DNA of 47,872 nt. It comes from Isosphaeraceae bacterium (lineage in GTDB: Bacteria > Planctomycetota > Planctomycetia > Isosphaerales > Isosphaeraceae). The notes below the pieces were generated by a model. It was not told where the DNA came from. It did not search any database and saw only the letters and a list, made by a program, of their open reading frames with translations. Made by a program: the position numbers and the translations under genes. The stretch lies in NCBI GenBank assembly GCA_025356475.1, contig JANXSX010000157.1:1-47872 (forward strand), written 5' to 3'. Below are positions 34,402-40,661 of the stretch, one piece after another. The first letter of the stretch is position 1; every line of letters starts with the position of its first letter.

Positions 34402-34770
34402 GACCGGGTAGCTCAGTCGGTAGAGCAACGGACTTCAATCGGAGTGTCGAAATAGGAGCCTCTCGCGGGTAGAAACCGAACCGCGAAGAGTGAATGTCGC
34501 AGTTTGCTGGAACACCCTGAGAACCTCAACCACCACAACGCGGCTGGCAACGGCGATCGTGACGGTTTGAAAAGGTTGAGGATTGGGCAATCAGCAGGCA
34601 AGGACCCGTCGGATCGATGGGCCCAGCCTCAGAGACTAAACGCGACACGCCTGCGATGGCGATGAGATAGTCCAGACTTGCAACGCTGGTCGGTCGAGGA
34701 CTCAGCGGTCGGTGAAAGCCGATGCGGTACGTTAATCCGTTGGTCCTGGGTTCGAGTCCCAGCCCGGTCA
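34402..34770 (+). tRNA. tRNA-Lys(UUU) gene interrupted by a group I intron
   Basis: Exons 34402-34435 and 34732-34770 join to a perfect cloverleaf. The 7-bp acceptor stem is GACCGGG/CCCGGTC. The D arm is GCTC/GAGC, the anticodon stem ACGGA/TCCGT with loop CTTTTAA, giving anticodon UUU (positions 34-36). The variable region is TGGTC, the T arm CTGGG/CCCAG with loop TTCGAGT, and A73 ends it; CCA is not encoded. The intron lies between U34 and U35, inside the anticodon. Without the intron the T-arm-containing part alone would look like a broken tRNA. A terminator follows at 34788. Confidence 0.95.
34436..34731 (+). ncRNA. Group I self-splicing intron (IC3-like) in tRNA-Lys(UUU)
   Basis: This 296-nt intron has the full core traced by hand. 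P1: exon bases 34432-34435 pair with 34442-34445, giving the U-G wobble at the 5' splice site. P2: CTCTCGCGG with CCGCGAAGAG. P3: 34495-34500 with 34642-34647 (TGTCGC/GCGACA). P4: 34505-34509 with 34592-34596. P5: CCC 34515-34517 with GGG 34585-34587, then an 8-bp extension 34524-34531/34574-34581. P6: 34597-34599 with 34626-34628. P7: 34634-34638 with 34668-34672 (GACTA/TAGTC) inside the R and S elements CAGAGACTA and GATAGTCC. P8: CGCC/GGCG. P9: 34684-34688/34703-34707, then a GAAA-capped hairpin (34708-34723). The last base is G (34731). No open reading frame is inside. Confidence 0.94.
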
Positions 34771-37847: not shown

Positions 37848-40661
37848 ATGATTCCTTGGTCCGAAATCCGTCGGAACGCGGTTGAGTTCGTCACGGAATG
37901 GCGAGCGGAGAAGAGAGAGGCGGAGGCCCGAACTTTCTGGGACCAGTTCTTCAAGGTCTTCGGGTTCAATCGGAGGCGGCTGGCGAGCTTCGAAGTCCCG
38001 ATCAAGTTCCTTGATGGCAAGCGAGGGAGGATCGACCTTTACTGGAAGGGGACACTCCTCGCAGAGCACAAATCGCGAGGAGAAAACCTTGATGCCGCTT
38101 ACGTCCAAGCGACGGACTATTTCGAGGGGATTCCCGAAGAGGACCATCCGAAGCATATCGTGGTCTCAGACTTCGCCCGTTTTCGGATCTATGATCGAAG
38201 GGCTGGGGACGCCTACCACGAATTCGCCATTGAGGATTTTCCGAAGCATATTGAACGCTTTGCCTTCGTTCTGGGGCAGATCCCTCGGGAGTATGAGGAT
38301 GCGCCGCCGATCAACATCAAGGCGGCAGGGCTCATGGCGAAGCTTCACGACGCACTTAAAGCGAATCGATACGAGGGTAAGGATCTGGAGATTTTTCTTG
38401 TCAGGATTATGTTCTGCCTGTTCGCCGACTACACAGGGATTTTCGCCAGGAAGAACGACTTTCGCTATTACATCGAGACGAAGACGAAAGCCAACGGGTC
38501 CGACCTCGGGATCCATCTGAGGGAGATCTTCGAAGTACTAAATAAACCTATCCAGGAACGTCAAATTGACTTGGACCCCGACCTGGCCGTCTTCCCGCAC
38601 GTGAATGGGCACCTCTTCGAGGAGTCGATCAAGGCACCGTCATTCAAAGCCGAGACGCGAGAGATCTTACTCCAGTGCTGCGCCTTCGATTGGAGCGAGG
38701 TCTCGCCTGCTATCTTTGGAACGCTTTTTCAGCTCGCAATGAATCGCGATCTTCGCGCCAAGTTGGGCGGTCACTACACCTCGGAGAAGAACATCCTGAA
38801 GGCAATCCGGGCGCTTCTCGTCGACCCTTTGCGGGCCGACCTCGGGAAGATCGCGACGGAATCCGACCTCAATGCGATGTTAGACAAGATCGCGAAGGTC
38901 AAAGTACTCGACCCTGCCTGCGGCTGCGGTAGCTTTCTCATCATCGCGTATCGCGAGTTGAGACAGCTTGAGATCGACATCCACGCGAAGCTTGTCGCTC
39001 TCCACCGCCAGCAAGTCCTGACGGTTGATTTCACACAAGGGATCGATGTCGATTCCATGTACGGCATCGACATTGACGAACTGCCCGTCCGCATCGCGGA
39101 GACGGCCCTCTACCTTGTCGATCACCAGATGAATATGAAAGCTTCACTCCAGTTCGGGAACTATTATACTCGCCTGCCGCTGAAGAAATCGCCCCACCTG
39201 AAGAAGAGAAACGCCCTCGATTATGACTGGGCGGAACTCGTCAAACCCGAGGAATTGACCTGTATTGTCGGTAACCCGCCGTTCCTGGGGAAGAAGAAAC
39301 GGACCCCGGAACAGAACGCCGACATGCGTACCGTCTTCGGTAGCTGGAAGAATCACGGCGAGTTGGATTACGTGTCCTGCTGGTACGTGAAAGCCCTCTC
39401 GTACATTCAGGGTACCAAAGTAAGATGCGCGTTAGTCGCCACGAACTCGATCACCCAGGGGGAGCAAGTCGGCATCCTCTGGAAGACTCTCGTGTCGAGG
39501 GGGCTCAGGATTCACTTCGCCCATCGTACTTTTCGATGGACGAACGACGCCCCGAATGTGGCGAGCGTCTTTTGCGTCATCGTGGGGTTTGCCGCGTTTG
39601 AACCGACCAGTAGGTTCCTCTACGATTACCAGAATCCCGACTCCGACCCCGTCGAGGCCCGACCGACCAGGATTAATCCTTACCTCGTTGACGCGGATGA
39701 CGTCTTCGTTGAATCGCGCCGGACGTCAATCTGCAGCAGTGCCCCCACGATTCGTTTCGGGAACATGCCGAACGATGGTCAGAATCTTCTCCTGGAGGAT
39801 GATGAGAAGAAGGCACTCCTAGCCTCCGAGCCGGGGGCTGCTCTCTATATCCGTCGATTCCTTAGCGACAAGAAATTCCTCCAGAATATTCCCCGATGGT
39901 GCCTCTGGCTGGATGGGGTGGCACCTAGCAAAATCAACGCCTTGCCGGAAGTTCGTAAGCGGGTTGAGGCCGTCAAGGCATATCGAGAAGCCAGCGGCAG
40001 GGCAGAAACCAGGAGGCTCGCTGAGACTCCTTATCTCTTCGGAGAGATTCGTCAGCCGGGGAGTCGTTACATCCTCATCCCTAGGCACACATCGGAGCAT
40101 CGCCGCTGCATCCCCATCGCAATCTGCGAGCCGGTCGATATCGTAGCCGATTCGTGCGCGGCGGTGTACTCGGAGGATCTCTATGTCCTCGGCGTCCTGA
40201 TGTCGGCGATGCACATGGCGTGGGTCCGACAGGTCTGCGGGAGAATCAAGAGCGACTTCCGATACTCAAATGAGATTGTTTACAATAATTTCCCCTGGCC
40301 CAAAGCCCCGACTGAGGCGAAGCAAGCGAACGTACGGATAGCTGCTCAAAGCGTACTAGCCTCACGGCTAAAATACCCGGATGAATCGCTTGAGGATCTC
40401 TACGATCCCGTTTCCATGCCCTCTGAATTGACAGCCGCTCACAGAGTGCTAGATCGGGCTGTGGATTCTTGCTACCGGACGAGTACCTTCACGACGGAAG
40501 CGATCCGGCTTCGATATCTCTTCGAGCTGTATGAAGCCTATGCCGCCGATGGTCAAATGAGCCTGCCTCAACCGAAGAAGCGTACCCCTAAGGTACCTTC
40601 CGCTCTCTCCAAGGAACCCAAAGGTAAAGTCGGGCACCCACCGAAAAGGAGCGGAGAGTGA
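37848..40661 (+). CDS. MmeI-like single-chain restriction-modification enzyme (type IIL)
   Basis: This 937-residue protein (MmeI itself is about 919) has the full fused layout. The N-terminal nuclease has D63 in GRIDLYW and E73-x-K75 in LLAEHKS, a PD-(D/E)xK site. A helical linker follows, then a gamma-class adenine methyltransferase with motif I LDPACGCGSF (residues about 352-361) and motif IV NPPF (about 474-477). The target-recognition region follows, ending RYSNEIVYNNFPWP (about 804-818), the MmeI-family mark. One protein would recognise, cut at a distance and protect by N6-adenine methylation of one strand. It stands alone, as type IIL systems need no partner. Regions flanking it are accessory in character. 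Confidence 0.9.
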   Translation: MIPWSEIRRNAVEFVTEWRAEKREAEARTFWDQFFKVFGFNRRRLASFEVPIKFLDGKRGRIDLYWKGTLLAEHKSRGENLDAAYVQATDYFEGIPEEDHPKHIVVSDFARFRIYDRRAGDAYHEFAIEDFPKHIERFAFVLGQIPREYEDAPPINIKAAGLMAKLHDALKANRYEGKDLEIFLVRIMFCLFADYTGIFARKNDFRYYIETKTKANGSDLGIHLREIFEVLNKPIQERQIDLDPDLAVFPHVNGHLFEESIKAPSFKAETREILLQCCAFDWSEVSPAIFGTLFQLAMNRDLRAKLGGHYTSEKNILKAIRALLVDPLRADLGKIATESDLNAMLDKIAKVKVLDPACGCGSFLIIAYRELRQLEIDIHAKLVALHRQQVLTVDFTQGIDVDSMYGIDIDELPVRIAETALYLVDHQMNMKASLQFGNYYTRLPLKKSPHLKKRNALDYDWAELVKPEELTCIVGNPPFLGKKKRTPEQNADMRTVFGSWKNHGELDYVSCWYVKALSYIQGTKVRCALVATNSITQGEQVGILWKTLVSRGLRIHFAHRTFRWTNDAPNVASVFCVIVGFAAFEPTSRFLYDYQNPDSDPVEARPTRINPYLVDADDVFVESRRTSICSSAPTIRFGNMPNDGQNLLLEDDEKKALLASEPGAALYIRRFLSDKKFLQNIPRWCLWLDGVAPSKINALPEVRKRVEAVKAYREASGRAETRRLAETPYLFGEIRQPGSRYILIPRHTSEHRRCIPIAICEPVDIVADSCAAVYSEDLYVLGVLMSAMHMAWVRQVCGRIKSDFRYSNEIVYNNFPWPKAPTEAKQANVRIAAQSVLASRLKYPDESLEDLYDPVSMPSELTAAHRVLDRAVDSCYRTSTFTTEAIRLRYLFELYEAYAADGQMSLPQPKKRTPKVPSALSKEPKGKVGHPPKRSGE

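Follow-up and report, generated by a model that had tools for sequence, protein, structure and literature searches.

Evidence for a group I intron that splits the anticodon of tRNA-Lys(UUU) in the planctomycete family Isosphaeraceae

Group I ribozymes that interrupt an anticodon between positions 34 and 35 are already known in another host tRNA, and introns of the same kind and insertion place occur in tRNA-Arg(CCU) and tRNA-fMet (Agrobacterium, cyanobacteria), where the host tRNAs are different from the one considered here; some tRNA-fMet introns carry an endonuclease reading frame (PMC5733544). The plastid trnK(UUU) gene, with its matK-bearing intron, is an interrupted gene for the same tRNA species, but that intron belongs to group II and uses another mechanism. 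We analysed a 47,872-nt stretch of DNA from an Isosphaeraceae bacterium of the phylum Planctomycetota (contig JANXSX010000157.1; hereafter the window, to which coordinates refer), in which the sequence, its relatives and empty-site alleles support the presence of a group I intron interrupting the anticodon of tRNA-Lys(UUU). Labels beginning with G, L and C denote genomes, loci and contigs, respectively, and g17 denotes a genus.

The Lys intron resembles the known 34/35 anticodon introns in its lack of an endonuclease and its long vertical persistence, but differs from them in its Lys(UUU) host, in its occurrence in Planctomycetota and phage contigs and in its P5a/P5b extension; with regard to the bacterial tRNA anticodon-loop introns of subgroup IC3, the P5 extension likewise departs from the minimal Azoarcus form. 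The tRNA-Ile2(CAU) introns of Acidovorax and Burkholderia (PMC8450103), of which locus L001 is a relative, are also small group I introns in the anticodon loop of a single-copy tRNA; they differ in their site (36/37) and guide and form a separate clade. The tRNAscan-SE 2.0 paper lists tRNA-fMet and tRNA-Ile2 as carriers of group I introns and states that the program is not designed for these (PMC8450103). A 2014 review counted tRNA and rRNA genes among the bacterial hosts and knew phage introns in protein genes only (PMC3984707), a statement that the same-site phage tRNA-Lys and tRNA-Leu introns described below go beyond. The available part of a report on Lak megaphages calls their tRNA introns enigmatic; these are alike in lying in phage tRNAs but are given there without a group I classification (PMC6784885).

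A search of the open literature, outside which most subscription papers fall, turned up no earlier description of a tRNA-Lys(UUU) interrupted by a group I intron. The original prediction that tRNA-Lys is not a described host holds for the literature searched, with one weak counter-claim: 22–49-nt 'group I introns' have been described in cyanobacterial tRNAs, one of them in tRNA-Lys(CUU) (PMC5733544), and inserts of this length could not accommodate a group I core. The ribozyme is of a known kind but its host is new: tRNA-Lys(UUU) joins the few known bacterial group I intron hosts.

Splice register and fold of the insert

Joining the two exons (34402-34435 and 34732-34770) gives a complete cloverleaf that is called as tRNA-Lys(UUU), and the joined sequence is identical at 73/73 letters to intact tRNA-Lys(UUU) genes found only in four genomes, all of genus g17 and all without a split gene, bearing out the claim that the exons rejoin to a flawless tRNA. 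The intronless alleles read CTTTTAA and so fix the junction within the anticodon, with U34 on one side and U35 on the other and an intron that ends in G; the terminal G claimed for the intron is thus placed in a register that these alleles set independently. Exon and intron boundaries are exact, the intron beginning with C and ending with G, and CCA is not encoded by the 3′ exon. No endonuclease open reading frame (ORF) was found in the 296-nt intron, the longest stop-free frame being 69 codons on the + strand.

ARAGORN run without introns returned no tRNA in the window, and as tRNAscan-SE is not designed for such introns, standard annotation misses the gene. In intron mode, ARAGORN detected the split gene with the junction one base off and labelled it tRNA-Asn(GUU). 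A junction one base to the left would indeed give a product that likewise folds as a tRNA; however, the empty site reads otherwise, group I introns as a rule have U before the intron and G at its end, the discriminator is A, and an intact tRNA-Asn(GUU) is present in the genome. We regard an Asn product as extremely improbable and rejected it, together with the pseudogene reading considered below, on the strength of the empty-site alleles and conservation.

The insert had been proposed to be a group I intron with all core helices. The Rfam group I intron model (RF00028) matched 34426-34688 over its full length with 42.0 bits (E 2.4e-9), in E-value mode only; no match was returned in the window at the gathering threshold, a curated cut-off of 50. 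The covariance check suggested with the original prediction was hence divided, the E value and the covariation of the fold speaking for the intron and the score falling short of the cut-off.

For the covariation count, 34 intron cores were aligned by a structure-blind method, and the group I fold was drawn by hand on the window sequence. Helices P2–P8 were paired in 95.9 % of cells (88.1 % in shuffles), 29 of 61 pairs had changed on both sides (15.2 in shuffles), doubly changed cells numbered 157 (44 in shuffles), and the covariation score was 0.243 (0.095 in shuffles). Sliding the partners by 1–3 columns gave at most 42.7 % pairing and a covariation score of at most 0.067, a comparison in which the fold has an advantage from being drawn on the window sequence; the doubly changed pairs are independent of that advantage. 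Compensatory changes were located in P2, P3, P5 (1 pair), P5a (6), P5b (2 and 4 in two helix segments), P6, P7 and P8, with P4 invariant, and P7 showed an A-U/C-G swap in 7/34 relatives. RNAalifold, unaided, returned nearly identical nested helices. This covariation and the recurrence of the split gene in about 37 of 45 family genomes speak against a chance resemblance. The P3–P8 core is present, with a P3/P7 pseudoknot and a bulged P7, and P4 is 100 % paired, as are P7 and P8; together with P9, which was recognized by inspection, this agrees with the core helices that had been listed. The P5a/P5b extension is missing from compact phage relatives.

At the 5′ splice site, the guide GAG pairs by inspection with exon CUU (34433-34435), forming a U34·G wobble, and 34453-34455 may form a P10 with 34732-34734. 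The U-G wobble of the original prediction is upheld by the position of U34 directly before the intron and by the conservation of the guide (Table 1), with a second guide possible: another GGAG, at 34441-34444 within GGAGU at 34441-34445, lies closer to the splice site than the conserved 34455-34458. The short P1 formed with the conserved guide would also suit an intron that is real but needs a host protein, such as a maturase-like synthetase or an RNA chaperone, and dependence on helpers in vivo is shared by many group I introns in nature (PMC3984707). Set against this, the core is complete and compact same-site relatives without the P5 extension still keep it. We consider such a dependence, which would be compatible with a functional intron, somewhat unlikely.

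Table 1. Features of the split tRNA-Lys(UUU) gene (window coordinates) and of phage introns (coordinates within the loci named)
Feature	Coordinates	Strand	Basis or remark
5′ exon of tRNA-Lys(UUU): acceptor, D arm, anticodon stem, C32 U33 U34	34402..34435	+	Identical to intronless alleles
Group I intron, 296 nt, terminal G 34731, without homing endonuclease ORF	34436..34731	+	RF00028, covariation
3′ exon of tRNA-Lys(UUU): U35 U36 A37, anticodon stem, T arm, acceptor, discriminator A73	34732..34770	+	
Internal guide sequence GGAG	34455..34458	+	GAG invariant in 34 relatives; pairing by inspection
P2 hairpin	34460..34490	+	95.4 % of cells paired, 5 compensatory pairs
P3 5′ strand, partner 34642-34647	34495..34500	+	99.5 % paired, 3 compensatory pairs
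P4–P5 domain with P5a/P5b extension, capped by GNRA loop 34547-34550	34505..34596	+	Covariation count
P6/P6a	34597..34628	+	6 compensatory pairs
P7 5′ strand (G, bulged A, GACUA), partner 34668-34673	34632..34638	+	100 % paired
P3 3′ strand	34642..34647	+	Covariation count
P8 hairpin	34648..34661	+	100 % paired, G-C/A-U swap in 6
P7 3′ strand	34668..34673	+	Covariation count
P9 (34684-34688/34703-34707) and P9.1 (34709-34712/34719-34722)	34684..34722	+	Sequence inspection only
GenBank phage group I-like introns in tRNA-Leu(UAA) or tRNA-Arg(CCU)	L287 1455-1745; L288 1461-1822; L294 611-896; L291		

Copy number and distribution of the split gene

The source genome (5.92 Mb, 232 contigs, 99.98 % complete) yielded 46 tRNAs above the cut-off and a set of weak matches that included the 3′ parts of two split tRNAs, namely, the window gene and one on C137. 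A search for a second Lys(UUU) gene, which had been suggested as a check, found none: no intact tRNA-Lys(UUU) was present among the tRNA anticodons of this 99.98 %-complete assembly, only tRNA-Lys(CUU), intact at C136, and the 73-nt joined sequence searched against the genome had full identity only to the two halves. Across the window's 28 long ORFs, 143 of 493 lysine codons are AAA, suggesting that tRNA-Lys(UUU) is needed, and a CUU anticodon cannot read AAA by standard wobble. The cell would depend on splicing of its sole tRNA-Lys(UUU) gene.

The alternative that the gene is a dead, intron-carrying pseudogene, with AAA read by another tRNA, could draw on the sub-threshold RF00028 score and on the intact tRNA-Lys(CUU). 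The wobble restriction on CUU speaks against it, however, and in nearly all relatives read the two exons together make up a complete tRNA, the core covaries as if selected, and the genomes that carry the intron showed no intact UUU copy. The intronless g17 alleles also argue against a pseudogene, which we judge very improbable.

Searching 59 relatives with RF00028, combined with split-tRNA reading, revealed weakly scoring Lys introns in genomes G019, G014, G035, G028, G022 and G032; scores in the five family genomes first found were 25–42 bits. Distribution was then scored with a pattern made of the intron 3′ end and the start of the 3′ exon, in which a terminal G was required and is hence not independent evidence. 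The pattern matched 37/45 Isosphaeraceae genomes (24/26 good ones); named carriers, taken from a genome collection, are Singulisphaera acidiphila DSM 18658, Paludisphaera soli, Tautonia sociabilis and Singulisphaera sp. GP187. Nearly all the loci read among the pattern matches are tRNA-Lys(UUU) genes split at the same site; the G059 match, with three mismatches, was not shown to be one. The Lys intron is a family-wide trait that is also carried by phage contigs, which extends the original prediction and points to an entire family in which AAA would go unread if a ribozyme were lacking.

Outside the Isosphaeraceae, the Lys intron is rare within Planctomycetota. A phylum sample of 392 genomes gave four pattern matches, two of them Isosphaeraceae; G272, of the same class and another family, has a Lys intron, and G340 (three mismatches) showed no split tRNA. 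The genome collection added Lys introns of 223–280 nt at the same site in Gemmataceae metagenome-assembled genomes (MAGs; L138 and L150), in RI_361 (L139) and in a MAG labelled Kuenenia (L151). Four MAGs with Lys introns (L151, L152, L155 and L156) are labelled Candidatus Kuenenia stuttgartiensis; at least L152 and L155 match family genomes (G022 and G065), so these record names look wrong.

Genus g17 falls inside the family in the Ile-intron tree (low support), which makes precise loss of the Lys intron in this genus likelier than primitive absence. Neighbouring proteins are common to the intronless locus and the loci of Tautonia (L130) and KatS3mg108 (L134), and close relatives of the DUF1549/DUF1553 gene that lies next to the tRNA in the window occur near the tRNA in S. 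acidiphila, GP187, L140, L130 and L126. Genus g17 offers a natural control.

We consider it highly probable that the one tRNA-Lys(UUU) gene found carries, between U34 and U35, a functional group I intron that is spliced out and retained by descent. In the transcript, the intron would fold into its pseudoknotted P3–P8 core, with the U·G wobble of P1 (exon CUU with guide GAG) aligning the 5′ splice site. Its removal would take two transesterifications, started by a bound guanosine and finished at the terminal G, leaving a tRNA-Lys with anticodon UUU able to read AAA; we infer guanosine-started splicing, catalysis and protein-free splicing. Without an endonuclease, the intron would have been retained in the Isosphaeraceae by descent, persisting while it splices as its host gene is single-copy and needed, and g17 appears to have lost it precisely. 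Three observations weigh against this reading: the RF00028 score lies under the curated cut-off; P1 has only three pairs with the conserved guide, with which the nearer GGAGU could compete; and in a 232-contig assembly, a second Lys(UUU) copy could lie in a gap.

Relation to other tRNA introns and to phage contigs

A second group I intron in the source genome (L001 1503-1842, G000:C137) is its stronger RF00028 match (65.3 bits) and lies at position 36/37 of a CAU tRNA. Because the remaining two CAU tRNAs of the genome are intact, elimination and the sequence make the split one most likely tRNA-Ile2(CAU); a CAU-tRNA intron occurs in nearly all Isosphaeraceae genomes examined. Both introns are group I, lie in anticodon loops and occur in the same family, as would be expected had the Lys intron been copied from the Ile2 intron within the genome. 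In a maximum-likelihood intron tree, however, the Ile introns all fall into a single clade (99.5/100), and the planctomycete Lys introns lie outside it, together with some of the phage Lys introns (98.1/95); the two introns also differ in site (36/37 versus 34/35) and guide, rendering such a move improbable. As the deep branches of the tree are long and many supports low, we relied mainly on this Ile/Lys separation. Separately, a tRNA-Leu of G022 (L093 570-880) is apparently split by a group I-like intron, seemingly at 33/34 rather than 34/35, and L094 (G003:C107) is a weak RF00028 match around which no tRNA exons were recognised.

Ten IMG/VR contigs (L158–L161, L163–L165 and L282–L284) have tRNA-Lys(UUU) genes in which introns of 183–204 nt occupy this same site, several of them inside tRNA arrays. 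RF00028 gave 44–69 bits for five of these introns and 37–38 bits for two more. Single-ORF tests found few clear phage genes on the viral contigs, and IMG/VR and the tRNA arrays are therefore the main basis for calling them viral. In GenBank, tRNA-Leu(UAA) introns occur in LR756501, a huge phage of 735 kb, and in Agrobacterium phage Atu_ph07, and a tRNA-Arg(CCU) intron occurs in a Microcoleus phage; split-tRNA reading and similarity served to place all three, none of which was listed by cmscan at E 0.01. An ARAGORN tRNA-Lys call in LR756511 (L291) was rejected, its 3′ half resembling tRNA-Leu(UAA); by eye, the LR756511 intron has an apparent HNH-like reading frame.

The Lys intron of L161 is 82 % identical to the Leu intron of LR756501, GGACUU closes the 5′ exon in both genes, and L161 joins the phage Leu introns in the tree (74.8/95), suggesting retargeting between Leu and Lys tRNAs and a link to phages; the evidence supports both without proving either. 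Tentatively, compact group I introns might circulate among the tRNA genes of large phages, moving between Leu(UAA) and Lys(UUU) via the common GGACUU at position 34, and one might have entered an Isosphaeraceae ancestor, gained the P5 extension and become fixed in the sole Lys(UUU) gene; this scenario is possible, though we would not presume it. The phage Lys and Leu introns offer a direct test of host change by tRNA introns.

Plasmid matches to the window intron reached 27–28 % coverage only. Matches to the pattern CGGACTTN{3,10}AGGAGTGC in viral contigs were mostly unrelated, and the pattern was not used. A viral contig of Isosphaeraceae type, L162 (20-1507 and 1209-1579), has an integrase frame that overlaps part of an intron-bearing tRNA-Lys, as if this tRNA were an integration site. 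Finally, the window encodes, at 37848-40661, an MmeI-type restriction-modification enzyme with five MmeI Pfam domains.
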